Of a stretch of 64,000 nt of DNA, positions 31,026-64,000 are shown one piece after another. Position numbers and translations under genes: made by a program. Every line of letters starts with the position of its first letter. Within the stretch, counting starts at the first letter, position 1. The stretch spans positions 1-64,000 of the forward strand of contig JAFCZJ010000005.1 in NCBI GenBank assembly GCA_019314375.1, read 5' to 3'. Origin of the DNA: Deltaproteobacteria bacterium (GTDB lineage: Bacteria > Myxococcota > B64-G9). Below the pieces are notes generated by a model that made no database searches, was not told where the DNA came from, and saw only the letters and a program-made list of their open reading frames with translations.

Positions 31026-31829
31026 TCACTTATACGGGCTCCAGATTTCGACAGGGTCCTCACCGCCGAACAGGAAGCTCAAGCCCAGATTGACGAACAA
31101 GGTGTTGCGAATCTTGGTCTCATCCTGGGCGATGGTGGCCGCGGATGCTTCACCCTTAACCCGAGCGGCGAAGGTGTAATCTCGCACATCCAAGCGAATG
31201 GCGAACCATCGGCTAAGGAAGATACGGAAGCCCAGACCGAAGGTGCCCACGAAGTAGTTGCCCGTGTCGACCCAGTAGCCGCTTGCGTTTTTGAACTCGG
31301 TGGAGGCCATGCCGCCGCCTGCGCTCAGGTAGAAGTCAGCGTGGCCCAAAACTCGATTGAACAGGGTCCACTTGCCGTAAATGGGGCTGAACTGGATGTT
31401 GATGCCCACGAAGTTGTTGATCATGGCCAAGTCGGCGTTGGATGGGCTGAGCTGGGCGTCTTTTTTCACTTCGTCGTAAGCCGTGGTGTAGTGGTTGCCG
31501 AAGCGCAGGCCATCACCCTTGTAAGTGGCCGGGTCGCTGCCTTCAACCTTGTCGCCCATGGCGAAAGGCACCTTGCAGGACATCCAAATGGCCTCCAGGG
31601 CAAAGGCCTCGTCCAGGTGGTAGTCGAAAGCCAGGGTGCCCGAGTAATGCTGGGTGAAGATGTCGTCCACGCTCAGGCCACCGAAAAGCGCCACTTCAAA
31701 TTTGTTCTTGACCGAATAATCACGTTTCTGAATCACGTGCACACGTTCGTTCTGGCTCTGTGCCCAGACCGTCGGGGCCAGTAAGCAGACCGTCAAGATG
31801 GCGAACAGGACTCGCGTAATCCGCGTCAT
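31026..31829 (-). CDS. gltB: Outer-membrane beta-barrel protein, GltB/NfsB-like
   Basis: 267 residues. Signal peptide (MTRITRVLFAILTVCLLAPTVWA), then 'KNKFEVALFGGLSVDDIFTQHYSGTL' beginning a barrel of about eight to ten strands. Strand motifs include 'DFYLSAGGGMA', 'FGLGFRIFLSRWFAIRLDVR' and 'TLFVNLGLSFLF'. The protein at 51530-52186 shares the sequence feel 'HFDIYLSAGLGV..GLGIKIFSTSWMSVRVDLRD', supporting a paralogous pair. GAGGTG precedes the ATG at 31829. Barrel subunits of Glt/Nfs sit in the outer membrane and contact the substratum or capsule. Confidence 0.78.
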   Translation of the reverse strand: MTRITRVLFAILTVCLLAPTVWAQSQNERVHVIQKRDYSVKNKFEVALFGGLSVDDIFTQHYSGTLAFDYHLDEAFALEAIWMSCKVPFAMGDKVEGSDPATYKGDGLRFGNHYTTAYDEVKKDAQLSPSNADLAMINNFVGINIQFSPIYGKWTLFNRVLGHADFYLSAGGGMASTEFKNASGYWVDTGNYFVGTFGLGFRIFLSRWFAIRLDVRDYTFAARVKGEASAATIAQDETKIRNTLFVNLGLSFLFGGEDPVEIWSPYK

Positions 31830-31849
31830 GGTGTCACCTCGCTCCCATT

Positions 31850-32578
31850 CTAAAAGGCATAACACACGCCGAGACGGAACATGACGACGTGGACAAAGTC
31901 CTCGAGCATCTTGTCTTCCACGGTCGTGCCCGAAGGTTTGTGTTGGGCATCGTATTTGTCGTAGATGAATTGGTCACGGATTTCCACCCGGAGACTCCAG
32001 TCCTCGACGAAGTGCAGGCGCAGTCCGCCGCCGAAATAGACCATGGGTTGGAAACCCGCATCCACTTTGATTTTTTGGTAGGTCCCGCCAGACCAATTCA
32101 ATTCGGAGTAATTGTAGTGCGCAATTCCCGCCCCGCCCACCAGGTATAGGTGGAAGCTGACGGCAAGCTCAGCCGACAGGTTGAGCTTGCCGTAGAGAGG
32201 ATTGAGCACGAAGCCGGCCGTGGACCAAAAGTCGAAATATTTCAGATCGGTCAGCGGCAGGCGTTGGATGCCGTCCAGGTTCTCGGCGGTGCCTAAGATC
32301 TCGTCTAACAGTTTTCGATCCCCGTTGATGAAGGCATAGCCGATATCCAACTCCAGACCGATGTAATCGTTGAAGTAGTACGCTACACCGGCCGAGGTCC
32401 CGATATGCCGAGTATACTTATCGAAGGTCGAGAGGGATGGCGTAAGCATGATCTCCAGCCGTCCATCCATGTTGTAGAGTTGGTTTGCCACGGTCAGGCC
32501 GTCCGCCCGGCTTGTGGCCGGTGCCGCCAGGACCAGGCAACATAACAAGAATTTGGGTAGAATCCGCAGGTTTCGCAT
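31850..32578 (-). CDS. gltA: Outer-membrane beta-barrel protein, GltA/NfsA-like
   Basis: 242 residues. Signal peptide (MRNLRILPKFLLCCLVLAAPATSRA). The mature protein shows barrel strands ('AGVAYYFNDYIGLELDIGYA', 'HLYLVGGAGIAHYNYSEL', 'GGGLRLHFVEDWSLRVEIRD') and ends in LGVCYAF with terminal Phe. It is the first gene of the Glt/Nfs operon and overlaps nothing; gltB follows 20 bases later. GGAG lies 11 bases upstream of the ATG. The assignment of A versus B depends on gene order as well as sequence. Confidence 0.75.
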   Translation of the reverse strand: MRNLRILPKFLLCCLVLAAPATSRADGLTVANQLYNMDGRLEIMLTPSLSTFDKYTRHIGTSAGVAYYFNDYIGLELDIGYAFINGDRKLLDEILGTAENLDGIQRLPLTDLKYFDFWSTAGFVLNPLYGKLNLSAELAVSFHLYLVGGAGIAHYNYSELNWSGGTYQKIKVDAGFQPMVYFGGGLRLHFVEDWSLRVEIRDQFIYDKYDAQHKPSGTTVEDKMLEDFVHVVMFRLGVCYAF

Positions 32579-32768
32579 GTTCCGGTATTCTCCGCTGCGC
32601 GTGGGTGAAGTGAACAATCTCATGGTCGAAATTGTGTATAATAGAGGCCCTGCCAACGCAAGGAAATTCTTTGTTTCCTTAGTGCTTATCCTACAGCTCG
32701 CACAGATTCACACAAAGGATCACAGGGGGGTTGAAGGGGGGTACAAGAGGACAGCAGGGTCAAAAATT

Positions 32769-33440
32769 CTATTTCAGAAGAGCCTTCTTTTTGGCGCTAC
32801 GCTGCTTTTTGACGGCTTTTTGCACCATCACCAGCCCGTTTTTGGCACCAGGGATAGCGCCCTTGATGAGTAGGAGGTTGCGCTCGGTGTCCACCTTGAG
32901 CAGACGCAGGTTTTGGATGGTCACCCGCTTGTTGCCCATCTGACCAGGCAAGCGGCGACCCTTCCAGACCTTGCCGGGGAACTCGCAGTTGCCGATGGAG
33001 CCCGGATGGCGCATGTTTTCGTGGGTGCCGCGTGTCGCGGTGCCACCAGCCATGCCGTACTTTTTGACGACACCCTGAAATCCGCGACCCTTGCTGACGG
33101 CCACGACATCGACGAAATCCCCATCTTCGAAAATGGACACGGTGATCTGATCACCGATTTTATACGCATCCACTTCTTCAGGGGTCATGCGCACCTCGCG
33201 CAGATAGCGCTGGGTTTTCAGATCGAGACGCTCAAAGGTACCCAGCCTGGGCTTGTTGAGTTTGCGGCCCGGGATTTCTTCGAAGCCAATTTGAATCGCG
33301 CTATATTTGTGCTTGGCGGGGGTACGCTTCTGCACCACAATGTTCGGCGAAGCAGCCAGCACGGTCACCGGAATTCGGTGTCCGACATCGTCAAAGATTT
33401 GCGTCATACCCAATTTCTTTCCAAGAATTGCTCTAGACAT
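32769..33440 (-). CDS. rplC: Ribosomal protein uL3
   Basis: 223 residues, full length. Begins MSRAILGKKLGMTQIFDDVG and has the conserved loop 'RGTHENMRHPGSIGNCEFPG' followed by 'KGRRLPGQMGN' and 'ERNLLLIKGAIPG'. uL3 binds 23S rRNA near the peptidyl transferase centre. The Gln that PrmB methylates in E. coli is Asn here (GSIGN). The gene is not flanked by rpsJ, rplD or any other S10-operon member. AAGGAG is eight bases before the ATG and a near-consensus promoter lies upstream. The Lys-rich tail (KKQRSAKKKALLK) is longer than usual. Confidence 0.95.
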   Translation of the reverse strand: MSRAILGKKLGMTQIFDDVGHRIPVTVLAASPNIVVQKRTPAKHKYSAIQIGFEEIPGRKLNKPRLGTFERLDLKTQRYLREVRMTPEEVDAYKIGDQITVSIFEDGDFVDVVAVSKGRGFQGVVKKYGMAGGTATRGTHENMRHPGSIGNCEFPGKVWKGRRLPGQMGNKRVTIQNLRLLKVDTERNLLLIKGAIPGAKNGLVMVQKAVKKQRSAKKKALLK

Positions 33441-47256: not shown

Positions 47257-47679
47257 TTATCGGAAGGGATTGTTTATCCGGACACCGTGGATGATTTGGC
47301 CGTCGGACATGTCTTCGGACAGCAGCACCTCCGCGCCGCCGCGGACCGCGGCCTGGACGATCATGGAATCCCAGAATGACAGTTTGTAGCGGTTATAGAT
47401 GTCGATGGCCGCCAGTATCGAATCGCCGTCGTTGATGACCACGGTCCACTTGAGCAGGTCCTCGATGACTTGTCTTGCGCTTGCGGATTCTACGGGTTTG
47501 GCGATCTTTCTCGTCAAGGTTGTGAAAAATTCCTGAAGAACCTGCGTGCTGAGAATGCCCATGCCGCTTTCCCACAGCTCCAAGAGGGTATCACGAGCGA
47601 TCTCATTCTTGCGGCCTGCCGAATTGTCATGGGCATACACGAGTACATTCGTGTCCAGAAAGATTCTAGTCCCTTTCAT
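47257..47679 (-). CDS. PIN-domain toxin ribonuclease (VapC-like)
   Basis: 140 residues, normal for the family. Acidic catalytic positions are present: Asp in 'IFLDTNVLVYAHD' near the N-terminus, Glu in 'QVLQEFFTTL', Asp in 'SFWDSMIVQAA' and Asp in 'LLSEDMSDG'. PIN toxins cleave tRNA or rRNA in a Mg-dependent way. The start overlaps the end of the antitoxin gene by 14 bases, the usual coupling. A truncated copy of its 3' end lies at 45699-45745. Confidence 0.88.
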   Translation of the reverse strand: MKGTRIFLDTNVLVYAHDNSAGRKNEIARDTLLELWESGMGILSTQVLQEFFTTLTRKIAKPVESASARQVIEDLLKWTVVINDGDSILAAIDIYNRYKLSFWDSMIVQAAVRGGAEVLLSEDMSDGQIIHGVRINNPFR

Positions 47680-47911
47680 GCAGTTCCTCCCTGGATACCT
47701 TGATCTGCCCCTTTGTGCCGAGATCGAAGGAGTGCATTAATGTGTGCCTGTGCCGTCGGCGTGCTTTGCGATAACCCGAATCCTCTTGGACTCGCTCTTC
47801 GATAGACTCTCGGACGAGCTCGCTCAGTGAAATCTCTTTGCGTGCAGCAAGTATTTTTGCCTTTTTCAACAAGCCCTTGGGCAAAGAAAGGGTCAAATTC
47901 TGCTTTTCCAT
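47666..47911 (-). CDS. Ribbon-helix-helix type antitoxin
   Basis: 81 residues. The N-terminal half ('NLTLSLPKGLLKKAKILAA', 'ISLSELVRESIEER') has the strand-helix-helix plan of RHH DNA-binding antitoxins. The C-terminal half, basic then acidic, would wrap the PIN toxin. GGAGAGGAGG precedes the ATG. A perfect palindrome at 47937-47967 lies just upstream and is the likely autoregulatory operator. Confidence 0.82.
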   Translation of the reverse strand: MEKQNLTLSLPKGLLKKAKILAARKEISLSELVRESIEERVQEDSGYRKARRRHRHTLMHSFDLGTKGQIKVSREELHERD

Positions 47912-50266: not shown

Positions 50267-50722
50267 ATGGGCGCAGCCAGCAACAGGCGCCGTTTTTGGG
50301 CCCTTGTTTTCTGTCTTGTGGGCTTGGGTTCGGCCTGTGGAACCGTGGATCCGGGTGAGGTGACTTTGGCCCGACCACAACGGCTGCCGGACCCGGTTCG
50401 TTTTGCTTCTGCTGTTCATCCTGCCTTGACCCAGGATTCAGGCTGCGCCGCGACTGAATGCCATGCGCGTTCGGCTTTGTTTCCTTTGCATACGGCGGAT
50501 GCCTTGCCTTCGGATAGCGAGATTGCGCATCCCTTGGATTTGCCCGAGCCCTTTCGCTCCGATTACTACACGGTCTTGTCGCGGGTGAACTTTGATAACC
50601 CGACGGCCAGTGTTTTGTTTCGCTGGGCGGATGGAGATGAGGCCGACCACCCTGGCGGTGATGCGCTCGACGCCGCAAGCCGACAGATGCTCTTGGATTG
50701 GCTGGCCGGGGTTGGGCCATGA
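50267..50722 (+). CDS. Lipoprotein with cytochrome-like Cx4CH motif
   Basis: 151 residues. Lipobox GLGSAC, Cys at 24. The segment 'FASAVHPALTQDSGCAATECH' resembles myxobacterial/planctomycete cytochrome-c-type modules, but the spacing is Cx4CH instead of CxxCH, so haem attachment is uncertain. The C-terminus ('PGGDALDAASRQMLLDWLAG') also fits that family. No ribosome-binding site is visible. TTGACA lies 35 bases before the ATG with CATAAT after it, so a nearly leaderless transcript is possible. The stop overlaps the next gene as ATGA, placing it first in the second Glt-like operon. Confidence 0.65.
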   Translation: MGAASNRRRFWALVFCLVGLGSACGTVDPGEVTLARPQRLPDPVRFASAVHPALTQDSGCAATECHARSALFPLHTADALPSDSEIAHPLDLPEPFRSDYYTVLSRVNFDNPTASVLFRWADGDEADHPGGDALDAASRQMLLDWLAGVGP

Positions 50723-51498
50723 ATTGGGCCGTAAGGTTGTTGCTGCTGGGGACCAGCCTGTTTTTGTGCTCAGGTCTTGTTCAAGCTGCTGATTACTCGG
50801 CCCGGGATGTGCAACTTCGGGTCATGGCCACTTCGGTCCCCGTCAGAGCAGGTCCCGGGGGCTCGTATCAGGAATTGGGCCGGGTTGGGAAGGGACAAGT
50901 TTATCAAGCCCTGGATCGAAGCCCGGATGGTGCCTGGTATCGCATTCGTTTGGCCCGAGGAGTCAGTGGATGGGTTTTGTCCGAGTTGGTCTGGCCCTTT
51001 GAGGTGGTGGACGAAGGCGCAACGGCTCGAGCCAGGGGTTGGATGCGGCAAAACGTCCTGGGAAAAAGCCCGATAGGTGACGGTGGTCTGCGGTTTGCTT
51101 TCGCGGGCGGTGCTTTGGATAGCGATGGTTATTTCGCTCTTCGACTGGGTTATGCCCCGAGTCGACATTATGCCTTCGAACTTTTGGCCAGTCAGTCTTC
51201 CGGGGGATTGGGCAGCTTAAGTCTCTATGGTGCTGAGTTGGTCGTGTCCTTCGGTCCCTGGCGCTCTTTGGTGCCCTTTGCAGCGGTGGGCGGCGGGGGC
51301 GCCACCGCCCTGCCCCACCGCGAAAGTCGCCTTTTCGCCGAGCGCACCCTGCCCATGCTCATGGCGGGCGGCGGTTTGATGTTGGCGCTAAAGGGTGGGT
51401 TCTCTTTGCGCTTCGACGCGCGACGAGTGATGGTTTTTTCCGCCGACGAGACCTGGGGCATGGTGGCTTTGCTGGGTGGTTTGATGTTGACGTATTGA
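50719..51498 (+). CDS. SH3-domain protein fused to an outer-membrane barrel (GltA-like position)
   Basis: 259 residues. Signal peptide (MNWAVRLLLLGTSLFLCSG). A bacterial SH3 domain lies at about 30-92 ('VPVRAGPGGSYQELGRVGKG', closing 'GVSGWVLSELV'). The rest is a small barrel with strands such as 'GYFALRLGYAPSRHYAFELL', 'LVPFAAVGGGGATAL' and 'GGFSLRFDARRVMVF'. SH3b domains usually bind peptidoglycan. The barrel half resembles the GltA-like protein of cluster 1. ATGA overlap with the preceding lipoprotein gene. Would anchor an outer-membrane pore to the cell wall, by inference. Confidence 0.7.
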   Translation: MNWAVRLLLLGTSLFLCSGLVQAADYSARDVQLRVMATSVPVRAGPGGSYQELGRVGKGQVYQALDRSPDGAWYRIRLARGVSGWVLSELVWPFEVVDEGATARARGWMRQNVLGKSPIGDGGLRFAFAGGALDSDGYFALRLGYAPSRHYAFELLASQSSGGLGSLSLYGAELVVSFGPWRSLVPFAAVGGGGATALPHRESRLFAERTLPMLMAGGGLMLALKGGFSLRFDARRVMVFSADETWGMVALLGGLMLTY

Positions 51499-51529
51499 AT
51501 CGGCCCGAAAGGGCTGCGAGGAGTCTGTT

Positions 51530-52186
51530 TTGTTGAGAATTGCCCGATGCGCGTTCCTGATGGTCCTTTGGCTGGCCTGCCTTGCGGTGCCGCCGGCGCA
51601 GGCCCGATGCCCAGAACCGCCCGAAACCGATCAAGGTGGACGGAAAGGTCTTGCCCAACGGCTTTTCGCCAAAAAACTGAGGCATGAGATTCATGTCTTC
51701 GGGGGGCTTTACGCCAGCGACTTGATGGGGACGGCACCCTATGCAGGGCTGAGTTACAGTTTTCATCTGAATGAGGATTTTGCTCTGGAAGCCGGCCTGG
51801 CTTGGGCCCATTTTGCCTCCAGTCTTCAGGGCCCCGTGGAAGATTTCACAGGCTACACCTTGCTGGAAAGCCATCATGCGATGATGTATTCGGGCGCTCT
51901 GGTTTGGCACCCCATTCACGGCAAGTTCATGCTCTTTCATCGATTCATTCCCCACTTTGACATCTACCTGAGCGCCGGTCTGGGCGTGACCGATAGCCGC
52001 AGCGCCAAAGGTTTGACTTACAATCTGGGTCTTGGCATCAAGATTTTCTCGACCTCCTGGATGTCCGTACGCGTCGATCTCAGGGATCACATTTATGTCC
52101 AACAGTTGATGGCCTCCGAAACCATCACCAACAACATTTCGGTGACCCTGGGAGCCGGTTTTTGGATTCCATTCGAAAACACCTGA
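51530..52186 (+). CDS. Outer-membrane beta-barrel protein, GltB-like
   Basis: 218 residues. Signal peptide (MLRIARCAFLMVLWLACLAV). Strands include 'HEIHVFGGLYASDLMGTAPY', 'FALEAGLAWAHFASSLQG', 'HFDIYLSAGLGVTDS' and 'SWMSVRVDLRDHIY', paralleling the GltB-like protein at 31026-31829. Starts with TTG supported by GAGGAG six bases upstream. Ends 25 bases inside the next gene, so coupled. Confidence 0.75.
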   Translation: MLRIARCAFLMVLWLACLAVPPAQARCPEPPETDQGGRKGLAQRLFAKKLRHEIHVFGGLYASDLMGTAPYAGLSYSFHLNEDFALEAGLAWAHFASSLQGPVEDFTGYTLLESHHAMMYSGALVWHPIHGKFMLFHRFIPHFDIYLSAGLGVTDSRSAKGLTYNLGLGIKIFSTSWMSVRVDLRDHIYVQQLMASETITNNISVTLGAGFWIPFENT

Positions 52187-53502
52187 GCTGGGTTTGGCTC
52201 TTATTCTTCTGTGCCGGACTGCTGCAAGGCGCTTGCACGGCTGAGCGCACCGCGGCGCGCGAGGTCCTGGCCGATCCGCTCATGCGCTTTGGCCCGGCAC
52301 GGGCCATCGATGCGCCGAACGCCCCCCCGGTCAGGGATGACTCAAGCTTGCCGGTGGACACGGTTCGCGCCTCGGTGGACATGAGCATGGAACCAGGCAG
52401 CGATGTGCAGGCGACTCACCTTGTGAGCGGGATAAGAACCGCCGTGGGCATCTGGGCGGGCTTGGGCTTAGAGGCCGGCTACGGCACCGACTTGGACAAG
52501 CTCAAGGTCTTCAAACGAGACGGTGTGGCGGATCCGCTTCCTTTGGATCGTCTGTCCCACGGACCGGACGCAGCCATCGTCTACGATGACGGCACCAGTG
52601 TTTTGCGCTTGGGATATCGCTATCGCCACGCCTGGGACGGCGACCTGCATGAGCCCTCCATCCGCGCCCGGACCGCCGTCTTGAGACGAGATACCGTGAT
52701 CGAGGTCGACTATCGCCACAAGCGTCAGGCTCTGCAAGTGGGCTCCGGGCATCACCCCGCTGAAGAGGCCGTGGATGCTAAAGCCCAATCGGATGCATTC
52801 TCCTTGGCCCTGGAGCAGGGCTGGGTCCCTGGCTGGAACCTGCGTTTGGAAGTGCTCGGCCGGGTCGAGTCGGGCTTCTTGCAAGACCCTTATCGCCTGG
52901 TGTCTCTTTGGAGTCATCGGGCCGAAGACCTGCTCGATGGGCCGGCCGACACGCCTCGCTCGGAGGCCGAACGGCATCCTGGCGAACGTGTTCGTTGGGC
53001 TTCCATGCTGCGTTTGCGCAAAGCCATCCCCGCATGGGGCAGCGTGCTCGAACTGGGCATCGGCAGGGGATCGGGCTCCTGGCGGGTTGAACAAAGTCGG
53101 GCCCTGATCGGCTGGTCACAAAGGATGGGAAACCATGTTCGCCTGGGACTGACCGGCGGGGCCTACCACCAAACCCGGGCGTCGTTTTACCGTGACGACT
53201 ATCCGGCGGGTCCCCCAGGTGCCTACTGGAGCGCGGACCGAAGCCTGAGTTCTTACTGGGCCTGGTGGTCGAGCCTGGAACTCTGTCTGGGTTGGTTGGC
53301 CGGTGACGGGCGATTGATGGGCATGTTCAAGTACATCGATTTGCGCTTGGCCGGTCGCTTGCTGCGGGCGGATTACAATTTCGAGGGTCTGGATTCGGCC
53401 AACGGCTTTACGGATTATGCCGATGAGGACTTCACCGACCGGCAGGTTTTCGACGGCGCTTGGGTTTTTGGCGGCTTGTTTGTTTTCGAAGCTGGTTTTT
53501 GA
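52162..53502 (+). CDS. Lipoprotein: DUF4266-like segment fused to DUF3570-like barrel
   Basis: 446 residues. Lipobox LLQGAC, Cys at 25. Residues 26-45 ('TAAREVLADPLMRF') resemble the small DUF4266 lipoproteins normally encoded beside DUF3570 genes. The rest looks like a DUF3570 outer-membrane barrel: 'GFLQDPYRLVSLW', many alternating strands, and a final '..GGLFVFEAGF' with terminal Phe. Starts at TTG with GGGAG seven bases upstream, inside the preceding barrel gene. TGATG overlap with downstream candidates. The function of DUF3570 is unknown; an outer-membrane location is likely. Confidence 0.6.
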   Translation: MDSIRKHLSWVWLLFFCAGLLQGACTAERTAAREVLADPLMRFGPARAIDAPNAPPVRDDSSLPVDTVRASVDMSMEPGSDVQATHLVSGIRTAVGIWAGLGLEAGYGTDLDKLKVFKRDGVADPLPLDRLSHGPDAAIVYDDGTSVLRLGYRYRHAWDGDLHEPSIRARTAVLRRDTVIEVDYRHKRQALQVGSGHHPAEEAVDAKAQSDAFSLALEQGWVPGWNLRLEVLGRVESGFLQDPYRLVSLWSHRAEDLLDGPADTPRSEAERHPGERVRWASMLRLRKAIPAWGSVLELGIGRGSGSWRVEQSRALIGWSQRMGNHVRLGLTGGAYHQTRASFYRDDYPAGPPGAYWSADRSLSSYWAWWSSLELCLGWLAGDGRLMGMFKYIDLRLAGRLLRADYNFEGLDSANGFTDYADEDFTDRQVFDGAWVFGGLFVFEAGF

Positions 53503-53519
53503 TGAAGCGAGAGGGACAC

Positions 53520-54308
53520 ATGAAAAGGAAAGCTGGAAGCTGCCTTCCCAGATCTCCTACCTCAGCAGCCCGGGCTTCCAGATGTGCCTGTAATGCAAGG
53601 AGGAGCAGTAGATTCGGCCGGAGGCGTGGTCTCTCCACGTCGAGGACCGAATCTGCTGATTCGACGAAGCAGTACAGGTGCAGCTGGGAGATCCGGGGCC
53701 TTGCGGTCCTGTTGGCGCTATCCCTTTGCACGACGGCCACGGCGGGACCAAAAGACGGGGAAAAGACAGAATCGCCGACGGTCGCGGAGAAAAAGCCCAT
53801 ACAGCCCCTGGATCCCAAAGCCCTTCGCGAATTGGGTTTGGAGCACAGCCGCAGCCGGGATGCCCTGCTCGCGGCCGAGGCTCGACTGAGCCTTTTGGCC
53901 GAAAAACTCTTCGACAGTCGGCTGGAGGTGGTTTATCGGGGCGAGTTGGATTCTCCTTTCTCTCTGGCGCGGGTTGAGCTCTGGTTGGATGGCGGCTTGG
54001 CCTATCGCAAGGATTTCTCCAAAGCGCCAAGCGTTCAGATGCTCAAACTTTTTGACGGGTATTTGCCCCCAGGTTCTCATCTCTTGGAAGTGAAAGTCTT
54101 CGCGCATGGACCGAAGGCCGCCAAGTCCGACCTGCCCGGTTACGTGGCCGGCAGCGGCCTGGTGGTTTTGCTTAAGGAAAAAACACAGGGCAGTTTGGTT
54201 TTCGAGGCCGAACAAGATGGAGAACCGGCCGAAGCTTCGGATGCGGAACCCGAAGCCAGTTGGGACGTGGAAATCGAAGCGCGGTTTGAGACCCAGGCAA
54301 AGGAGTGA
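53520..54308 (+). CDS. Periplasmic protein resembling the adaptor ('dihydrolipoamide acetyltransferase'-labelled) of Glt-like clusters
   Basis: 262 residues. The mature region has 'EVVYRGELDSPFSLARVELW', 'LFDGYLPPGSHLLEVKVFAH' and 'GSLVFEAEQDG', a pattern I recall from proteins beside AgmU-like TPR genes that databases often mislabel. The N-terminus is odd: MKRK is followed by about 55 Arg/Ser/Cys-rich residues before a good signal sequence (RGLAVLLALSLCTTATAG). That odd stretch coincides with a large inverted repeat at 53537-53698, so the original signal peptide may have been split by an insertion. GAGAGGG precedes the ATG. No other in-frame start exists nearer the signal sequence. Confidence 0.6.
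   Translation: MKRKAGSCLPRSPTSAARASRCACNARRSSRFGRRRGLSTSRTESADSTKQYRCSWEIRGLAVLLALSLCTTATAGPKDGEKTESPTVAEKKPIQPLDPKALRELGLEHSRSRDALLAAEARLSLLAEKLFDSRLEVVYRGELDSPFSLARVELWLDGGLAYRKDFSKAPSVQMLKLFDGYLPPGSHLLEVKVFAHGPKAAKSDLPGYVAGSGLVVLLKEKTQGSLVFEAEQDGEPAEASDAEPEASWDVEIEARFETQAKE
53537..53698. repeat. Imperfect inverted repeat (about 160 bases) inside the 5' end of a gene
   Basis: Inner arms 53579-53619 and 53644-53686 pair over about 40 bases at roughly 80 percent (for example CAGATGTGCCTGTAATGC against CAGCTGCACCTGTACTGC after reversal). Outer arms near 53537-53547 and 53686-53698 also match (GATCTCC). It can form a long hairpin. It looks like a small non-autonomous element or a REP-type sequence; no transposase is present. 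Confidence 0.6.
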
Positions 54309-54318: not shown

Positions 54319-56178
54319 ATGAAGATTGGAAGATACAGCTTCTTGCTGATCGTGGCGCTGCTCTTGGATTACGGCGTGGCCGGTGCCCAGATGCCTACTT
54401 TCGGCTCCGCCGAGGCACAGCTTCGCGCCTGGTTGCTGCGCCAGCAAAGCGGCAAACAGCCAGCGACGCCCAAAGAGTTAGGCACCATTCTGCAGTCGCT
54501 TGAAATTGTCCGACTTGACGGAGGAGACAGGTCCGCGGCCGTCCGCTTCGGCGCTTTGGTGCTGGACCCCGCTTTTCAGAAACTGGCTGGGACGCCGGAT
54601 TTTGATGCGGTTCGTTTTCATCTTGCGGCTTCCCTGGCCCGGCAAGGGGCCATGGGGCAGGCCCGGGAAATCTTGCTGGGCCTTTTGGCCGCCAAGCCGG
54701 CCTCTTCCATGCGCGCGCCTGCTTGGCGAAAGCTTTCCGACATCAGCCTGGCAAGCGGGCAATTGGATGCCAGCCTGGGTGCCCTGGCTCGACTGGGAAG
54801 TCTCAACGAGCCGGATGCAATCAGCGAAGTGGCTTATCTCAAGGGCAAGGCTCTGGCCTTGATGGGCCATACTGATGCCGCCCTGAGCGCGCTCAAGGTG
54901 GTGGAGCGAAACAGCAGACGATTTGCCCAGGCGGTTTTCCTGACCGGCGCGCTCAAACTGGAATCCGGCCAGGCAGAGGCTGCCGAGGACGCTTTCTGTC
55001 GACTGGTGCACCAGCCGGGCGATGGACGCTTTACTTTCTATTTTAACGAGATGACCGACGCGGTTTTGCAACAGACCTGGTTGGCCCTGGCCAGAATGCG
55101 ACATGACGCCGGTGAATTCGGCCGTGCCTTGGAAACCTACGCACGGGTCCCCGAAGGTGGGTCGGCGGGTCGTCGCGCTCTTTATGAATCGAGTTGGACC
55201 TTGTTTCGTATGGGCCGCATGCGTGAAGTCAGGCTCCGCCTGCGGCGTTTACTGAGCGGCTCATTGCTTCCTTCGGAATCCCCTTCCGCTCGTCTGTTGT
55301 TGGCTTATGCAAGCTTGGGTGATTGCATGTTCGATGAATCTCGAAGCTTGCTCGACAGACTCGACAAAGACCTGGTTGGGGTTTCAGAAACCGCCGACGA
55401 CCTCCTGGGTGCCGGACTAAACGAGCCCTGGCCCTTGCCGAGCAAAGCCCGACATTGGATGCCGCTTGAGGCAAGTCAACGCCGATTGCAGGCCTTGGCC
55501 GACAAGATCCGCGATGCACTGATCCGGAGTCGCTTGGCCCAGGGGGCCTTGGCGAATTTGGCCCAGTCCGAACTGGAAACGTCCGTGCAACTTCCAGGGC
55601 AGATCAAAGCAGCGGCGCTTACCAGGGATCTGGCCAAGGCGCGCTCATTGCAGCAGCGCATCGCAAATCTTCGAGCACAGATCGGTTCGGCCAAGGGCGA
55701 GCAAAACAAACGTCAGCGATTGATTGAGCTCAGCCGCCAGGTTGACGAGGCCGCCCACCGGGCCCGGCAGGCCTTGAACAAGCTCAGGGGTTTGCAGGTG
55801 GGCAGTTTGCCGACGGGATTCGTCAAAGGCGCCGACCTGCCCGCGGCATATCTGCAGGCGGAGATGACGGCTTTAGCCAAATTGGGGGGAGACCTGGTGA
55901 AACAGCTGCAGCGTGTCCAGTCTCTTGGAAAAGACGACATTCGGCACCGCAGTTTTGAATTGTCCACCAAGGTTAAAGGATGGACCCGCCAGGCTGCCCT
56001 GGGGCGCATTGACGCAATCTTGGGTGAAAAGCAGGCCCTGGAGCTCGAGGTGCAGAACTTGGCTTTGGGCCGCTATCCCTTGAGCTTGCTTCGCGAGCTT
56101 ATCGAGGCGGGGCAATTGGATGCCGATTTGGAGTACTGGCCTTACGACGGAGAAGAGTGGCCGGATGAGTTTGAGTAA
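54319..56178 (+). CDS. Periplasmic helical-repeat protein, GltC-like (second cluster)
   Basis: 619 residues. Signal peptide (MKIGRYSFLLIVALLLDYGVAGA). Helical repeats ('FHLAASLARQGAMGQAREIL', 'ALYESSWTLFRMGRMREVRL') and a coiled-coil-like segment near 430-520. The C-terminus 'YWPYDGEEWPDEFE' matches the tail of the cluster 1 GltC-like protein ('YWPFKREYWDDE'). This shared ending, plus position before a GltD-like gene, supports the assignment. Start at 54319 follows AGGAGTGACGCGG; the ribosome-binding site is loose. Overlaps the next gene by 14 bases. Confidence 0.75.
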   Translation: MKIGRYSFLLIVALLLDYGVAGAQMPTFGSAEAQLRAWLLRQQSGKQPATPKELGTILQSLEIVRLDGGDRSAAVRFGALVLDPAFQKLAGTPDFDAVRFHLAASLARQGAMGQAREILLGLLAAKPASSMRAPAWRKLSDISLASGQLDASLGALARLGSLNEPDAISEVAYLKGKALALMGHTDAALSALKVVERNSRRFAQAVFLTGALKLESGQAEAAEDAFCRLVHQPGDGRFTFYFNEMTDAVLQQTWLALARMRHDAGEFGRALETYARVPEGGSAGRRALYESSWTLFRMGRMREVRLRLRRLLSGSLLPSESPSARLLLAYASLGDCMFDESRSLLDRLDKDLVGVSETADDLLGAGLNEPWPLPSKARHWMPLEASQRRLQALADKIRDALIRSRLAQGALANLAQSELETSVQLPGQIKAAALTRDLAKARSLQQRIANLRAQIGSAKGEQNKRQRLIELSRQVDEAAHRARQALNKLRGLQVGSLPTGFVKGADLPAAYLQAEMTALAKLGGDLVKQLQRVQSLGKDDIRHRSFELSTKVKGWTRQAALGRIDAILGEKQALELEVQNLALGRYPLSLLRELIEAGQLDADLEYWPYDGEEWPDEFE

Positions 56179-59100
56179 AATACAGCACCTGTTTATGGCT
56201 TTTGGGCTCTTGGCCCTTTGGCTTTGCAGCCAGCCGGCTTTGGCGGCTGAGGCATCAGCCCAGCCCCGCTGTGCTCCTCAGCCTGGGGAGCCCGGCTGGC
56301 TTGAGTTCCAGTTGCAGCGAAAAGAAGGGTCCTTGGCGCAGCGGCGAAACGAAGCCATCCGTTTGCTGAAGCAGTTTTTGGCCGAACACCCCAAGGCCTC
56401 CCAGCGAGCCGATGCCCTCTATCGCCTGGCCGAGCTGAGTTGGGAACAAGCCGAGGCCGATCTTTTGGTCGCCATGCGGGAATACGAACGCAGGCTCGAG
56501 GAGTTCAGGCTCGGTCAACTCAAGAAACGTCCGCCCGAACCGAGTATCCAGCTCGATGCCTCCATTCTTATTTATGAAGAGATGTTGGAAAAGCACCCGA
56601 ACTTCGATCGATGCGACATGGTGCTGTATCTTTACGGTTTCGCTTTGAATGAGCAAGGAGACGAAGACACGGCCTTGGCCATCTATCGTTCTTTGCTCAA
56701 GCGCTTTCCGCACAGTACCTTCGCGGCGGACGCCAATCTGGCCATCGCCGAGTTTCACTTCGCAAAGGCCCAGTACAAACCTGCCCTGAAGGCTTATGCC
56801 CGTGTTTTGGCCTTTCCCAAATCGGTGCTTTTGGATCTGGCGCTCTACAAAACGGCCTGGTGTCATTTCAAATTGGGCCGAGCCAAGGATGCCGCCAAAT
56901 TTTTCAAGCGGGTATTGGACCGCTCGCGCAAACAGAAAACAGAAGGCAACAAGCAGGCTTCGCCCGGCGGCGATTTGGAACGGGAAGCATTAGAAGATCT
57001 GGCTTTGACTTTCAGCGAATACGGCGGCGCCAAAGAAGCCTACCTATTTATGAAGCAGGTGGGCGGCGAGCAGTACTCGATCCGGGTTTTGGAAAACCTG
57101 GGCGAGGTCTTTTTTCGCCAGGCCCGATACGACAAGGCCATCGACAGCTATCGCATGTTGGTTCAGCGTTTTCCCTTGGCCAAAGACAGCCCGGGGCACC
57201 AGCAACAAATCGCTTTGGCCTTTGAAAAGGAAGGCAAGCTGGAAGCCTCTTTGACCGAGCGCAATCGGCTGGCGGACAGCTATGGTCCCGGGTCTTCTTG
57301 GGCCAAGCATCACGCGGCCAAGCCCGAGGTCCAAAAGATGGGTTTGGGTCTCGCGGAAAACGCCTTGCGTTACGTCGCGATGGCTCGACACAAACAAGCC
57401 CAGAAAGGCACAAGCGACAAGGCCTACAAGAAGGCGGAGCAAGCCTATCGAAAATACCTGGAGCGATTCGGCAAAACCGAACAAGCACCCCGGATTCACT
57501 TTTATCTCGGCGAAGTTTTGTTCAAGCTCAAGCGATTCGATAAGGCGGCTGAGCATTACAGCAAAGCGGTTCACTCCGGCAAAGAACAAGCGCTGAAACA
57601 AGAAGCGGCTTATGCCGCGATTTTGGCCTGGGACAAACAAAGAGACTTACAGCCCAAGAATGAAAAGCCCCCGGCCAAACCTCAGGACTTGAGTCCGGCT
57701 GAACAGGGATTTTTGCGCACGGTGAATGAATTCACCAAGCTTGCGCCCGACGATCCCAAGCTTGCCCAACTTCGATTTGAAGTGGGTCGAATCCATCATC
57801 TTCGGGGACAATTTCCCAGGGCGGCCAAGCATCTTTTGGCTTTGGTTGCGGCCAAGCCCAAGGGCGAATATTCGGAAGCGGCCGCGGACCTGGCCCTGGA
57901 TTGTTATGCCAAGGCCGGCCTTTGGACCGATGTAGAACGCGAGGCTCGTCGTTTTGACAAGGAAGGATGGTATCGAGGCAAGGACTTAGGCGGTCTACTC
58001 AAGGACATCATGGCCGGGGCTATTTTTCAGCATGCCGCGTCGAGGTCCAAAGCGGACGAGCATGGCAAGGCCGCGAAAGAGTACCTGCGCATGGCGCAGG
58101 AGTTTCCAAAAAATGAACGCGCTTCCAAGGCCCTGTACAATGCGGCGGTGGCCCAGGAAAAGGCGGGAGAGAAAGCCCAGGCGGTCAAGCTGTATCAGCG
58201 AGTCATCGCCGAATACCCCACTCGCGCGGCGGATGCCTTGTTCGTCATCGCCGGCATTCATGAACGGCAGTATGACTACCAACAGGCATCGGATAGTTTT
58301 GCGAAATTCAGCAAGCAATTCGACTCGGACAAGCGAGCGCAGGACGCCTTGTTGCAAGCGGCCTTGCTCCTTGGCGCTCTCGGACAATTCGACCGGGAAG
58401 CGGCCCTTTTGCAGGATTTCACCAAACGATTTGCGGCCCATGCCAAAGCGCCAGAAGCCCTATTTCGGGCGGGTTTGGCCCAGGAAAAAGCCAAAAAATT
58501 CAAGAAAGCTGAAAAACTCTTTTTTGTCTATCAACGAAAACATGGTCTCAAGCTGGGGCATGCTCGAGAGGCCGGCCTTCATCTCGGACGCTGTCTTTTG
58601 GCGCAAAAACGTACGCGCTCGGCAAAAAAGTGGTTTGAACGATGCGGAAAATTCAAAGCCAGGCGCTCGCCTGCCGGCTCGGAGCTTGCCGCCGCTGCTG
58701 AATGTCGCTTCCTCTTGGGTGAGTTGGTTTTTGAGGAATACGAAAAGATTGTTTTGCGACCGCCCATGCGCAGGCTGGCCAAATTGTTGAACCACAAGGC
58801 CACCATGCTGAAGAAAGCGGAGGCCTTATTCGCCAAGGTGGTGGAGGCGGGGCATCCCGAATGGGCCTCGGCGGCTCTTTACCGCATCGGTGACATGTAC
58901 TCCAAGTTTGCTCGCGCCATCTACGACGCGCCTTTGCCCAAGGGTTTGAGCGAGCGTGAATTGGAGATCTACCGACAAGAACTACAGACCTTGGCCTTCC
59001 CCATCGAAGACAAGGCGCTCAACGCTTTCGTCATCAGCCTGGGGGTCGCGCAAAAGCAACGCTACTTCAGCACCTGGAGCAACAAAACCTTGCAGATGTT

Positions 59101-59251
59101 ACGCAAGCTGGATCCGGCTCAATACCCGAAAGAAGAAGAGATCCGTCCGGGTACGGGTTGGGCTGACTCTTTCACCCGTTTCCCCCTGAATCTCAAGCGC
59201 ATCAAGGTGCCCCAAAAGCCCGCCAAGAAGAAAAAAGGGGGCGCTTCATGA
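56165..59251 (+). CDS. Large periplasmic TPR protein, GltD/AgmU-like (second cluster)
   Basis: 1028 residues. Signal peptide (MSLSKIQHLFMAFGLLALWL..). TPR-like units run nearly the whole length ('LYGFALNEQGDEDTALAIYR', 'ALYKTAWCHFKLGRAKDAAK'). The C-terminal 'DAPLPKGLSERELEIYRQEL' parallels 'DAPVPGGLTMEQQDIYVEEL' in the cluster 1 protein, strong evidence of common origin. It lacks the two Lys/Arg tracts of that protein. The ATG at 56165 lies inside the end of the GltC-like gene; the stop overlaps the next gene as ATGA. Confidence 0.82.
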   Translation: MSLSKIQHLFMAFGLLALWLCSQPALAAEASAQPRCAPQPGEPGWLEFQLQRKEGSLAQRRNEAIRLLKQFLAEHPKASQRADALYRLAELSWEQAEADLLVAMREYERRLEEFRLGQLKKRPPEPSIQLDASILIYEEMLEKHPNFDRCDMVLYLYGFALNEQGDEDTALAIYRSLLKRFPHSTFAADANLAIAEFHFAKAQYKPALKAYARVLAFPKSVLLDLALYKTAWCHFKLGRAKDAAKFFKRVLDRSRKQKTEGNKQASPGGDLEREALEDLALTFSEYGGAKEAYLFMKQVGGEQYSIRVLENLGEVFFRQARYDKAIDSYRMLVQRFPLAKDSPGHQQQIALAFEKEGKLEASLTERNRLADSYGPGSSWAKHHAAKPEVQKMGLGLAENALRYVAMARHKQAQKGTSDKAYKKAEQAYRKYLERFGKTEQAPRIHFYLGEVLFKLKRFDKAAEHYSKAVHSGKEQALKQEAAYAAILAWDKQRDLQPKNEKPPAKPQDLSPAEQGFLRTVNEFTKLAPDDPKLAQLRFEVGRIHHLRGQFPRAAKHLLALVAAKPKGEYSEAAADLALDCYAKAGLWTDVEREARRFDKEGWYRGKDLGGLLKDIMAGAIFQHAASRSKADEHGKAAKEYLRMAQEFPKNERASKALYNAAVAQEKAGEKAQAVKLYQRVIAEYPTRAADALFVIAGIHERQYDYQQASDSFAKFSKQFDSDKRAQDALLQAALLLGALGQFDREAALLQDFTKRFAAHAKAPEALFRAGLAQEKAKKFKKAEKLFFVYQRKHGLKLGHAREAGLHLGRCLLAQKRTRSAKKWFERCGKFKARRSPAGSELAAAAECRFLLGELVFEEYEKIVLRPPMRRLAKLLNHKATMLKKAEALFAKVVEAGHPEWASAALYRIGDMYSKFARAIYDAPLPKGLSERELEIYRQELQTLAFPIEDKALNAFVISLGVAQKQRYFSTWSNKTLQMLRKLDPAQYPKEEEIRPGTGWADSFTRFPLNLKRIKVPQKPAKKKKGGAS

Positions 59252-60381
59252 AGCGAATATCTTGGATGCTTGGTTTCTTGATGCTGCTTTTGTTTGTTGC
59301 GGCTTGCACCACTACCAAAGCCCCGATCCGCAAAGGGCCTGATCCCCTGATGCAGCGACGCAAGGCTGTCTTGGCATACAACCGAGCGGTCAAGACCCTC
59401 GGCTCCAAACGTGCGAACTACCACACAGCGGTCCAGGATTTGGAAAAGGCCTTGGCATTGGATCCAAAGTTTTACGAGGCTCATTACAACCTGGGGCTGC
59501 TCATGGCTCGCGGCAACGATCCAAAGCGCTCCGAGCAGGAATACAAAAAGGCCCTGAAGCTCAAACCAGGAGACCGCAAGACCCTCTTCAATCTAACCGA
59601 GCTCTTCGTATCACTAAAACGCTACGATGCGGCCGTGGAGGTCTTGGAAGCCTTGGTGGAAGACAACCCGGGCGATCAAGAAGCCCGAAACAACCTGGCC
59701 GTCATCTACCGCCTAAAAGGCGACCACAAGAAAGCCACCGAACAGGCCCGCTACGTGCTCGATCGCAATCCCAAGCAAGTCATGGCCTACAACAATCTGG
59801 CCACCATCTTCAGCGAGCAAGGTCGTCACGAAATGGCTGAGGACTTGTTCCGTCGCGCCCTGGCCTTGGAGCCTGACAACCCCCGAGTGCTGAACAACCT
59901 GGGCCTGGCACGCCTGAAGCAGGGCAAGGTCCAAGAAGGCTTGGAAATGTTCGAAAAGGCCATCAAGGCCAACCCCCGCCTGACCGAAGCCGGCCTGAAC
60001 GCCGCGGTCGTCTTCATGGCCTCCGGCGCTTACAACCGCGCTCGTTTGGCTTATCGCAAGGTAGTCCGCTCCGTCCCCGGATTCTTGCCCGCTTTGGTGG
60101 GTCAGGCTGTGGCGGAACGGGCCATGGGACGCTTCAACCAGGCGGAAAAAGCCTATCAGCAAATCTTAGGCCTCGATGCAGACAACACCGAAAGCCTCTT
60201 CAACCTGGGCTTGCTCTACATGCGCCACAAAGAAAAACCAGCCTGGGCCTGCGAGGCCTTCAAGAAAGCCCTGAACTCCAAAAGAATCAACAAAGAACAA
60301 GTCAAACAAGCCAAGGGTTTCTTAGAAGACCTGCGCTTGAACCACCCAAAAAAATGCGGCAAAGGGAGCAAAAGCCCATGA
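59248..60381 (+). CDS. TPR lipoprotein, GltE-like (second cluster)
   Basis: 377 residues. Lipobox FVAAC, Cys at 20. Eight or so TPRs ('AHYNLGLLMARGNDPKRSEQ', 'VLNNLGLARLKQGKVQEGLE', 'SLFNLGLLYMRHKEKPAWAC'). Shorter than the cluster 1 GltE-like protein because the acidic/Lys tail is missing. ATGA overlaps at both ends. Expected to sit at the outer-membrane inner face or periplasm between the GltD-like and GltG-like proteins. Confidence 0.82.
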   Translation: MKRISWMLGFLMLLLFVAACTTTKAPIRKGPDPLMQRRKAVLAYNRAVKTLGSKRANYHTAVQDLEKALALDPKFYEAHYNLGLLMARGNDPKRSEQEYKKALKLKPGDRKTLFNLTELFVSLKRYDAAVEVLEALVEDNPGDQEARNNLAVIYRLKGDHKKATEQARYVLDRNPKQVMAYNNLATIFSEQGRHEMAEDLFRRALALEPDNPRVLNNLGLARLKQGKVQEGLEMFEKAIKANPRLTEAGLNAAVVFMASGAYNRARLAYRKVVRSVPGFLPALVGQAVAERAMGRFNQAEKAYQQILGLDADNTESLFNLGLLYMRHKEKPAWACEAFKKALNSKRINKEQVKQAKGFLEDLRLNHPKKCGKGSKSP

Positions 60382-60650
60382 GGTTTATCAGCCGATTGTT
60401 GCTAGCCTGCCTGGTCTTCGCAAGCCTCATCTTCGCCCCCGATTACGCCCAGGCCAAGACCAAAAAGCCAAAGGCAGGCTCCGTCCGAGTCTACCGCTTC
60501 GACAACCTGGACGTAGAGGGCAACGTAAAAACCCCCCAACTCATGTACTTCCTCAAAAGAATCCGCAAACGATTTCGTTCCTTCCGCCTACCCAAACAAA
60601 ATTTCTCCAATAAAATCCTGAAAGCCAAGGAAGAAGCCGACTTTCTCTAG
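60378..60650 (+). CDS. Small periplasmic protein, GltF-like (second cluster)
   Basis: 90 residues. Signal peptide (MRFISRLLLACLVFASLIFA). The mature part 'VRVYRFDNLDVEGNVKTPQL' then 'RKRFRSFRLPKQNFSNKI' aligns in plan with the cluster 1 GltF-like protein: [KR]VY, DV.[EG], KP/TP, Y, F..L/F..R/K.NF. Position directly after the GltE-like gene is the same in both clusters. ATGA overlap with the preceding gene. Confidence 0.65.
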   Translation: MRFISRLLLACLVFASLIFAPDYAQAKTKKPKAGSVRVYRFDNLDVEGNVKTPQLMYFLKRIRKRFRSFRLPKQNFSNKILKAKEEADFL

Positions 60651-60830: not shown

Positions 60831-62066
60831 TTAGAAATCGGGGAAGGTTTCCAGCTCTGCAAGGATGGTTTTGGCTAGGGAATAGAGCCCCTGAGTGTTC
60901 GCTGTGTTGGACAGTAACACCACCACGGCAGGGGGATTCAGGGTGAATACCACCTGGCTGCTGAAGCCTGGAACACCCCCGTTCTTGGAGTAGTAAGCCT
61001 TGCCTTCGGGATCCTCGATGTTAATAAGGAGGCCGGTTTTGGCGTCGACCCCGTTGGGGCTGTCTCGGTATGGGGTTATCACCAGGGTCCAGGCCGGGTC
61101 TGTTCCGGAGAGCGCACCCTCGAAGAAGCGCAACACCTCATCTCCTGTGGAACGTAGCATGCCGCCACCATGTAAAGGCTCACCGATGTCCACGGGGGGC
61201 GCTTCCGCACCGCTGCTGTACCCCATTGCTTTGCGCAGGAGCTGGCTGGTGTCGAGTACAGTAGTAGTGTCAACAAGACCAAAGGGTTCGCAGATCTCAC
61301 GATGCACCAGCGCATCGAAAGTGACCTCTCCAGAGGCCGTGACTGCAATGTAGCCCAAGATGCCGGAGCCAAGGTTAGAGTACGCATAGGTCGTTCCAGG
61401 CTCGTGTAAAAGCGTGGCGGTAGAAAGGTACTCTTCAAGCAAGGCCACAGTGTAGTTTCGGGCTGGGTTGATATCCCCAGGGTAAAGCACATTGTCAGGA
61501 AAGTTTTCCAAACCTGAGGTGTGGGTCGCGAGATCCAGCAACGAGATGGAGCGCTGGGTCCCGGTGGGAACGTTCAGACCGAAAGTATCCTCCAGACTGT
61601 CGGTGAGCGCTACCTCATTCCGGTCGATACCCCGGGCCAGGAGGTATCCGGAGTAAACCTTGGTCACTGAGCCGATCTCGTAAATAGAGTCGGCTCCTGG
61701 TGGGGTACTTCCTCTTAGCGTAGTCGCACCGAAGCCGGTCACATATCGAGAGCTAGGCGTAGCCACACCTACCACAAGGCCAATAGCCTTGCCCTGCGAG
61801 TAGTCTGGATTCACAGAGCTTGCGGTGAGTTCTTGGAGCAGGCAGTGGATCGGTGGACCATCCTGGCATTCTGCGCCACCATCGTGGTCCGCATCCAGTC
61901 CGGCATCTTGCGCAGCATCCAGACCGGCATCTTGCGCAGCATCCAGTCCGGCATCTTGCGCAGCATCCAGTCCGGCATCAAAAGTAGCCGAAGAATCTGA
62001 GCACCCGGTCAGTATCGAGCTCAACACCAACACCATCACCAAAATAGAGAGTATGGGTGTCTTCAT
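60831..62066 (-). CDS. Beta-lactamase-fold serine hydrolase lipoprotein
   Basis: 411 residues. Lipobox ILTGC, Cys at 22. A linker of DAAQDAGL repeats (24-base units, about 61905-61981) leads to a serine beta-lactamase/DD-peptidase fold. The Ser-x-x-Lys motif is SVTK near 131 ('YEIGSVTKVYSGYLL'), the Tyr motif YSN lies near 227 ('YAYSNLGSGIL'), and the third motif region is 'YYSKNGGVPGFSS'. Such proteins are class C beta-lactamase-like esterases or carboxypeptidases. It runs against the Glt-like genes on either side and splits them. No strong ribosome-binding site at the ATG. Confidence 0.85.
   Translation of the reverse strand: MKTPILSILVMVLVLSSILTGCSDSSATFDAGLDAAQDAGLDAAQDAGLDAAQDAGLDADHDGGAECQDGPPIHCLLQELTASSVNPDYSQGKAIGLVVGVATPSSRYVTGFGATTLRGSTPPGADSIYEIGSVTKVYSGYLLARGIDRNEVALTDSLEDTFGLNVPTGTQRSISLLDLATHTSGLENFPDNVLYPGDINPARNYTVALLEEYLSTATLLHEPGTTYAYSNLGSGILGYIAVTASGEVTFDALVHREICEPFGLVDTTTVLDTSQLLRKAMGYSSGAEAPPVDIGEPLHGGGMLRSTGDEVLRFFEGALSGTDPAWTLVITPYRDSPNGVDAKTGLLINIEDPEGKAYYSKNGGVPGFSSQVVFTLNPPAVVVLLSNTANTQGLYSLAKTILAELETFPDF
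61905..61981. repeat. 24-base coding repeats in the hydrolase linker
   Basis: Three near-identical units encoding DAAQDAGL follow the lipoprotein Cys, with a fourth partial unit. They form a flexible tether between the lipid anchor and the catalytic domain. Confidence 0.85.
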
Positions 62067-62314
62067 GCCGATTTCATTTTTCCAGGCCGCAAGGTTTTCA
62101 GGTCTAGATTTTCCAACTCGAACTCGCATTTGTCGCATATCGAACCTGCTCATACTGTACCGCACCCGGTTCTTTGGACACAAGTAAGCACCAGGCCGCC
62201 TCAGTCAAGGCCAGGTTGATCGATGGTATGCAGATGGTGTTTGTGTTTCAAGGCCCGGGAACCTTATGACGGCTTGACACGTCAAAGACATTACACGAGA
62301 ATCCGGACCAAGAC

Positions 62315-63712
62315 ATGGCAAGCTCGACTCAAAGCATCTTGAACTGTTCGATCATCTGGCAAAATACCATGATGGAGGAACGAGCTTTCCCCGCCGGACG
62401 ACGGATTACCGTCGGCGAAGATCATCGAGCTACCTTCACCTTGCCCGCCAACCTGGGTAAAAAGCGCTGCTTATTCAGGCCCAAACCGAACTCTTGTGAG
62501 TTGTGGTTGCAGGAAGGGATGTTGGGTCGGGTTCAGATCAAGGGCCGCACCTGGGAGGTCGATGAGTTGTTGACGGACCCTCAGGGTTTGGCGGATCGAA
62601 AAGGCCAGTCGATAGTCTATGAGCTTGAGCCCGGCGATGGCGGCGTGCTTGTGTTCGGCTCGGTGGGCCTGGCGTTTCAATTGGGGAAGGCGGCGCCCGC
62701 CCTGCCCCCCTCCAGTGTTGGGCAAATCTTGGGGGCGGACAAGACGGTCACCCGTGCTTTTGGGGCCAGCGTCGCGCTTATGGTGATGCTCATGCTGGTG
62801 TCTCGGCTTTTGGGCGCGCCGGGAACGGCTTTTTCGATTGAGCAGTTGCCTGATCGATTTGTGTCTTTTGTGGTGGACGATCCGAGTTTGGTCAAGGATT
62901 TCAAAAAAGACCTGAAGGAATTAGAGAAAAAACAGGCTGAAGAAATCAAGAAACGTCTGAAACCCAAGCGCAGCAGGCCCGAGGAACGCCGGCCCGAGAA
63001 GAAGGCGGTGGAATCGCCGGCGGATGATGCGGAAACCAAGCGCATCCGGGAAAAAGTGGCCAAAAAAGGCATGGTGGCTGAGTTATCCAAGGCCCGCAGG
63101 CGCAACAGCGCATTGGCGCATGTGCTCAACGACGGTGGTCTGGGCATGAGCATCGATTCCGCCATGTCGGCCATGCGCCACGGCAAGGCACGCGCCCGCT
63201 TGTTGACCTCCAAGGGTGCGGGCGGCATCGTCGTCCCCAGCTTGGTCTCGCGGCGCGGCAGCGAAGAGGCCCTGGGCGAAGGCATCTCCGACGCGGGCCC
63301 CAAGACGGGCCGAACCGCTCGTCGCGTGGCGAGCGGCAGCCGTTTGGCCGAGAGGGCCGAGGCCAGTTTGTCTTTGCCTTCAGCTGCCTCCACCACGGTC
63401 ACCGGCGGCACCCTGTCGAAGAAGGCCATCGCCAAGGTCATCATGCGCAACAAAGGTGCCATCAAGTACTGCTATGAGTCCCAGCTCACACGCTTCCCCA
63501 CCCTGCGAGGCAAGGTGGTTGTGGATTTCATCATCGAAATGAACGGCAGCGTACGCACGGCCAAGGTTTCCAGCAACAAGCTCAACAAGGCTGCGGCCAA
63601 GGGAAAAGTGGCAAGCTGCCTCATGCGATTTGTTCGACGATGGCAGTTTCCCAAGCCGCAAGGCGGCAAGGTGCGCGTCATTTACCCTTTCACCTTTGGT
63701 CGAAAAAGATGA
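62315..63712 (+). CDS. GltG-like protein: FHA-like domain, TM, TonB-like AgmX C-terminus (second cluster)
   Basis: 465 residues. N-terminal domain (about 1-130) resembles the second FHA-like domain of cluster 1 GltG. TM helix 'FGASVALMVMLMLVSRLL' at about 148-168, then a highly charged segment ('KKDLKELEKKQAEEIKKRLK'). The C-terminal domain has 'MRNKGAIKYCYESQLTRFPT' and 'CLMRFVRRWQFPKPQGGKVR', the AgmX/PglI signature. No canonical FHA domain. TTGACA lies 41 bases upstream and no clear ribosome-binding site is present. Overlaps the next gene as ATGA. Inner-membrane part of the second machine. Confidence 0.82.
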   Translation: MASSTQSILNCSIIWQNTMMEERAFPAGRRITVGEDHRATFTLPANLGKKRCLFRPKPNSCELWLQEGMLGRVQIKGRTWEVDELLTDPQGLADRKGQSIVYELEPGDGGVLVFGSVGLAFQLGKAAPALPPSSVGQILGADKTVTRAFGASVALMVMLMLVSRLLGAPGTAFSIEQLPDRFVSFVVDDPSLVKDFKKDLKELEKKQAEEIKKRLKPKRSRPEERRPEKKAVESPADDAETKRIREKVAKKGMVAELSKARRRNSALAHVLNDGGLGMSIDSAMSAMRHGKARARLLTSKGAGGIVVPSLVSRRGSEEALGEGISDAGPKTGRTARRVASGSRLAERAEASLSLPSAASTTVTGGTLSKKAIAKVIMRNKGAIKYCYESQLTRFPTLRGKVVVDFIIEMNGSVRTAKVSSNKLNKAAAKGKVASCLMRFVRRWQFPKPQGGKVRVIYPFTFGRKR

Positions 63713-64000
63713 AACGACGCAGCCTGAGAACACTTCTGTGCATGGGCTTGATGAGCATCGCCCTTTATGCTTGCGAGGCCGAGCGCTATTTCGGTCCCTA
63801 TGATGTAGCGGTGCCGACGGCCTTCGGCGAGAGCTCGGCGGCGCGGACCTTCGAGATGCCCCTGGACGCCACGGATGTGTCCGAGTTGGAAGAATTGGAT
63901 CTTTGCCTTGAGTTTGAGCTCGAGCGAGAGCTGCCCTGCATCTGCGATTACCCTGGAATCAGTCTGGATGAGCAAGACACCCGCATCGACTATCGACTGG
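63709..64000 (+). CDS. Lipoprotein, truncated by window edge
   Basis: The first 97 codons are visible. Signal sequence MKRRSLRTLLCMGLMSIALYAC with Cys at 22 and a fair lipobox. The mature part is acidic ('LDATDVSELEELDLCLEFEL') and has 'LPCICDYPG' with three more Cys residues. The ATG overlaps the stop of the GltG-like gene as ATGA, so it belongs to the second Glt-like operon. No family recognised from the part present. Confidence 0.65.
   Translation, partial: MKRRSLRTLLCMGLMSIALYACEAERYFGPYDVAVPTAFGESSAARTFEMPLDATDVSELEELDLCLEFELERELPCICDYPGISLDEQDTRIDYRL

Follow-up and report, generated by a model that had tools for sequence, protein, structure and literature searches.

In this study, we describe a Glt-like gene cluster, the second of its kind in the analysed window (a stretch of 64,000 nucleotides from a member of the Myxococcota; contig JAFCZJ010000005.1) and called C2 here. 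C2 appears to be a hitherto undescribed relative of the myxobacterial gliding machine, present in one bacterial family. In a GltD tree it forms a fifth paralogous lineage of Glt-like machines, with G4 as its sister group and apart from Glt, Nfs and G5. Its unusual parts are a Cx4CH lipoprotein (gene A), a DUF3570 beta-barrel protein (gene D) and the SH3 domain on a further presumed barrel protein (gene B). The outer-membrane end of C2 would combine these recruited parts (A and D) and the modified barrel (B) with ordinary components of such machines (C and I).

Results

Five contiguous open reading frames, A to E, occupy positions 50267-54308 of the plus strand, where the earlier note had placed them. 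They had been described as overlapping or nearly so, which the spacing bears out, with gaps from -25 to +31 bp (A/B -4, B/C +31, C/D -25, D/E -1; E is followed by GltC after +10 bp). The gene order A-B-C-D-E-GltC-GltD-GltE-GltF(-GltG) is identical in all nine sampled genera as far as the contigs extend; these genera, each represented by one genome, belong to a single Myxococcota family. The proposed neighbourhood search thus found GltC-F-like genes after the set in each genus sampled from the family, and an order kept in nine genera rules out that A to E stand beside Glt genes by chance. D is present as a single copy in each of the nine family genomes and in 0 of 137 other genomes. A search with A returned the same nine genomes, in one of which the gene is split across two contigs, and among the genomes sampled the complete A-E set is absent outside the family. 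A GltF-based scan of named genomes yielded only eight loci of the C2 type, and the named records with such loci are Deltaproteobacteria or Myxococcota metagenome bins. One bin, CSMAG_234, harbors two C2 loci (L039 and L040); their coverages of 128 and 11 suggest that the bin is mixed. Upstream of the block, two small overlapping genes on the minus strand (47257-47911) resemble a PIN-domain toxin-antitoxin pair.

The block is followed on the plus strand by a Glt-like chassis: a GltC-like periplasmic TPR protein (54319..56178), a GltD-like TPR protein (56165..59251), a GltE-like TPR lipoprotein (59248..60381), a GltF/CglF-like small protein (60378..60650) and a GltG-like protein with an AgmX/PglI C-terminal domain (62315..63712). 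The Glt-like core, consisting of GltC, GltD, GltE and GltG homologues, is therefore present together in the C2 locus. An opposite-strand gene lies between GltF and GltG (60831-62183, minus strand); in G007 there is a gap of ~5 kb at this position. After GltG follow gene H, a conserved lipoprotein (plus strand, 63709..64000 and running past the window to 64344), and, beyond the window, gene I (64334-64924), a CglE/GltH-like barrel whose match to CglE is below the cut-off. H and I follow GltG in 4/4 genomes whose contigs reach that far (L022 3709-4921, corresponding to window coordinates 63709-64924), so that the outer-membrane module is larger than the five genes originally assigned to it. None of the genes called downstream was recognised as a TolQR/AglRQS-type motor gene, and no motor could be tied to C2. 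The Nfs motor is likewise encoded elsewhere (PMC3858216), and own motor genes are therefore not essential for a machine of the Glt-like class.

In a GltD tree, five lineages are separated (Glt, Nfs, G4, G5 and C2). The C2 sequences, all from the one family, are monophyletic (100/100) and sister to all G4 sequences (100/98), which are themselves monophyletic without C2 (100/100). C2 GltD thus falls in neither the Glt nor the Nfs clade and, as a sister of G4, not inside G4 either. Consistently, a C2 GltD profile scored 1128-1837 bits in eight family genomes versus at most 546 bits in all others. According to GltC-based mapping, the family genomes also carry Glt, Nfs-like, G5-type and mglBA-linked G4-type clusters. 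The Nfs-like cluster is cluster 1 of the window (19772-33440) and adjoins rplC, as it does in G049 (L104); a minus-strand open reading frame at 19029-19736 starts with the tandem repeat MHSRKIGHSRKIGHSRKIGHSRKI.

The note had set the module against Glt clusters as having other genes instead of plain GltA/B barrels. This is wrong for gene C (51530..52186, plus strand), which is itself a GltA/GltB-type beta-barrel: it scores 112 bits against TIGR04565 (cut-off 60), a model that also covers the Glt barrels of the same genome, and aligns with GltA/B by hhalign at E 8e-30. The family of C is found phylum-wide (174/189 genomes). Gene B (50719..51498, plus strand) encodes a signal peptide followed by an SH3_3 domain and a presumed outer-membrane barrel. 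Of its description as an SH3-barrel, the SH3 part stands (SH3_3, E 7e-11). The barrel part is weakly supported, with 19.8 bits against TIGR04565 (below the 60-bit cut-off) and nothing significant in an hhalign comparison to GltA/B. The full-length B profile finds this family only, and its weak matches elsewhere are to the SH3 domain, except for one short match to the second half.

Gene D (52162..53502, plus strand) encodes a DUF3570 beta-barrel preceded, in the same protein, by a lipobox and a DUF4266-like start. The DUF3570 assignment holds, with 30.6 bits against PF12094 (gathering cut-off 25), and the model matched 9/9 D proteins of the family (G008 at 24.3 bits, just under the cut-off; G004 was missed in one search). 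D also aligns with a set of ten further DUF3570 proteins from Myxococcota (hhalign E 1.3e-18), and a D profile search found three distant DUF3570 proteins outside the family. The DUF4266 part of the original description applies at the profile level only (hhalign 77%, E 2e-5 over 25 columns), as the Pfam DUF4266 model did not match the start of D. Two [ST]xA[ST] sites are present in 9/10 of the other Myxococcota DUF3570 proteins (the tenth has one) versus 0/9 D proteins; paired [ST]GA[ST]-type ApbE sites are likewise absent in 9/9 D proteins, and D has no CxC motif. D was also considered as a GltH or GltA/B barrel and rejected after hhalign comparisons without a match. No relative of D was found among solved structures by sequence, and a low-confidence structural model (pLDDT 59, from a shallow alignment) is strand-rich, with generic outer-membrane barrels as the best fold matches.

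Gene A (50267..50722, plus strand) had been called a Cx4CH lipoprotein and is one: it has a lipobox Cys, and the Cx4CH motif is invariant in 9/9 homologues, together with a distal HPG and a Trp. At an identity of about 36-48% between genera, the C, C and H of the motif and the distal His do not vary, suggesting that a cofactor has been retained. A did not match any Pfam cytochrome and has no relative among solved structures. Its model (pLDDT 70, pTM 0.63, shallow alignment) places one helix ahead of Cx4CH (residues 43-56) and another at the C-terminus (136-147), and pLDDT falls below 50 in the loops that carry Cx4CH and the distal His; a fold search with it gave no useful match and none to a cytochrome. 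Nevertheless, the modelled order of helix, motif, distal His and helix can be read as that of a small c-type cytochrome, and A is possibly a monohaem c-type protein. Genes for cytochrome c assembly are found in 7/8 family genomes. A redox function is therefore kept open, given these genes and the invariant motif and distal His of A.

A is homologous to Cx4CH lipoproteins that are encoded beside DUF3570 genes in other Myxococcota families (hhalign E 2.7e-11). Outside the C2 family, the A and DUF3570 profiles both match in six genomes of three families, a co-occurrence with P 0.004 when counted by family and 5e-8 when counted by genome, the latter overstating independence. In 5/6 of these genomes the DUF3570 gene and a Cx4CH lipoprotein gene share a contig and are no more than a few kilobases apart, and G131 has them on separate contigs; in G031 a Cx4CH lipoprotein also neighbours a DUF3570 gene. 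These neighbourhoods contain thioredoxin-like, CxC DUF4266 and CxxCH genes and no Glt genes, and in three genomes of family f8 an ApbE gene is located a few kilobases away. Hence, the possibility that the set occurs independently of Glt genes is answered in two parts: in the genomes sampled the whole set never does so, whereas A and D have distant homologues that pair without Glt genes. A related cluster is known from the literature, in which DUF3570 proteins with [ST]GA[ST] sites are flavinylated by ApbE and DUF4266 proteins end in CxC (PMC8238504). The paired motifs of the Myxococcota DUF3570 redox clusters (L036, L037, L038, L171-L177) are mostly [ST]xA[ST] and depart from strict [ST]GA[ST]; flavinylation of the Myxococcota proteins is therefore presumed by analogy. 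D is homologous to the DUF3570 protein of the DUF4266-DUF3570-thioredoxin-ApbE cluster and has a DUF4266-like start, and A is homologous to the Cx4CH lipoprotein beside DUF3570 in the Myxococcota versions. In contrast to this cluster, D lacks the flavin-site-like motifs and CxC, and no ApbE, thioredoxin-like or separate CxC DUF4266 gene adjoins C2.

Gene E (53502..54308, plus strand) encodes a periplasmic protein that had been taken for a C-tail adaptor. We found no support for this; E has its homologue in the gene that follows mglA in G4 clusters (hhalign E 1.3e-8). A dispersed palindromic repeat (about 53580..53700) separates D from the part of E that is conserved, and a copy elsewhere in the genome (G000:C137:11-132) is 93% identical over 122 bp. 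The true start of E is uncertain because of this repeat at its 5' end.

Discussion

The view that the five-gene set lies outside the described Glt and Nfs complexes holds in so far as the set is absent from the Glt, Nfs, G4 and G5 clusters examined and from the published description of the M. xanthus clusters (PMC3169522), but E is part of an older chassis, that of G4. M. xanthus has G3 (nfs), G4 (MXAN_1922) and G5 (MXAN_1327) (PMC3169522), and the corresponding loci of the Myxococcus-like genome G049 were given these names here by position and gene content. C2 shares the E-GltC-GltD-GltE-GltF-GltG chassis with the mglBA-linked G4 cluster, including a homologous gene E and a sister GltD clade. 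In contrast to G4, C2 lacks mglBA and TolQ-TolR-TolR genes and has the additional genes A-B-C-D and H-I, and both clusters coexist in the same genomes. In many Myxococcota families a Glt-like G4 cluster that includes TolQ/TolR-like genes directly follows mglBA (L113, L114, L116, L118-L123, L125). Mutation of the gltD homologues of G4 and G5 in M. xanthus caused no motility phenotype (PMC3169522), and the closest relative therefore offers no clue to the function of C2. The Glt gliding machine of M. xanthus (G1+G2) resembles C2 in having barrels before GltC, the order GltD-E-F-G and a GltH/CglE-type barrel after GltG, but differs in its GltD clade and in lacking a Cx4CH lipoprotein, an SH3 barrel and a DUF3570 barrel. 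The Nfs spore-coat machine has the same core set as C2 and a separate GltD clade.

On balance, we favor, with some reserve, a reading of C2 as a trans-envelope force-transmitting machine with a structural role and a borrowed motor, whose platform includes a recruited, former redox pair. A TolQR/AglRQS-type proton motor from another locus would drive GltG in the inner membrane, and periplasmic GltC, GltD, GltE, GltF and E would pass the force to an outer-membrane platform. The barrels of this platform would be C (GltA/B type), I (CglE/GltH type), B (with its SH3 domain) and D (DUF3570, lipidated), and the lipoproteins A and H would serve them. A and D may have been recruited from a DUF4266-DUF3570 redox cluster; D would have become a structural barrel, and A, with its haem-type motif kept, may bind a haem or, in the manner of CglC, serve as a lipoprotein for assembly. 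The role of the platform is probably not standard gliding but the movement or anchoring of a polymer or adhesin at the cell surface.

CglC/GltK, a lipoprotein of the outer membrane that faces the periplasm, promotes integration of GltB/GltA (PMC4488436), and A might likewise have become a barrel-assembly lipoprotein that no longer binds haem, with the motif as a structural or metal remnant. In favor of this, A heads the barrel block and D has lost its redox motifs; against it, the invariant C, C, H and distal His suggest a kept cofactor. We regard this reading as rather unlikely. Alternatively, A and D might form a working, porin-cytochrome-like electron-transfer unit in the outer membrane, with the Glt-like proteins as scaffold or energy-coupled partner. 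The pairing of their homologues in redox clusters with thioredoxin-like, CxC DUF4266, ApbE and CxxCH proteins, the invariant motif of A and the cytochrome c assembly genes would fit such a unit. The loss of flavin-site-like motifs and CxC in D, the lack of ApbE in 5/8 family genomes, the lack of any multihaem protein seen beside C2 and the A model without a cytochrome match argue against it, and we consider it improbable.

That C2 is merely two unrelated operons which are neighbours by chance might be suspected from the A and D homologues found elsewhere without Glt genes. The overlapping or nearly overlapping genes, their constant order in nine genera and the GltA/B-type barrel C within the block stand against this; synteny largely refutes it, and it is very unlikely indeed. 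A bolder extension of the force-transmission reading, which we judge improbable, is that C2 might be a proton-motor Glt-type machine with a haem lipoprotein at its outer-membrane end, in which surface redox state or electron transfer would be coupled to mechanical work.

Conclusions

In summary, the motor family of gliding and spore-coat transport gains a fifth lineage. If A and D were recruited as proposed, the outer-membrane end of a Glt-type machine can be rebuilt with parts from an electron-transfer cluster. C2 moreover provides a concrete and testable parts list with which to address the role of the uncharacterised Glt-like copies.
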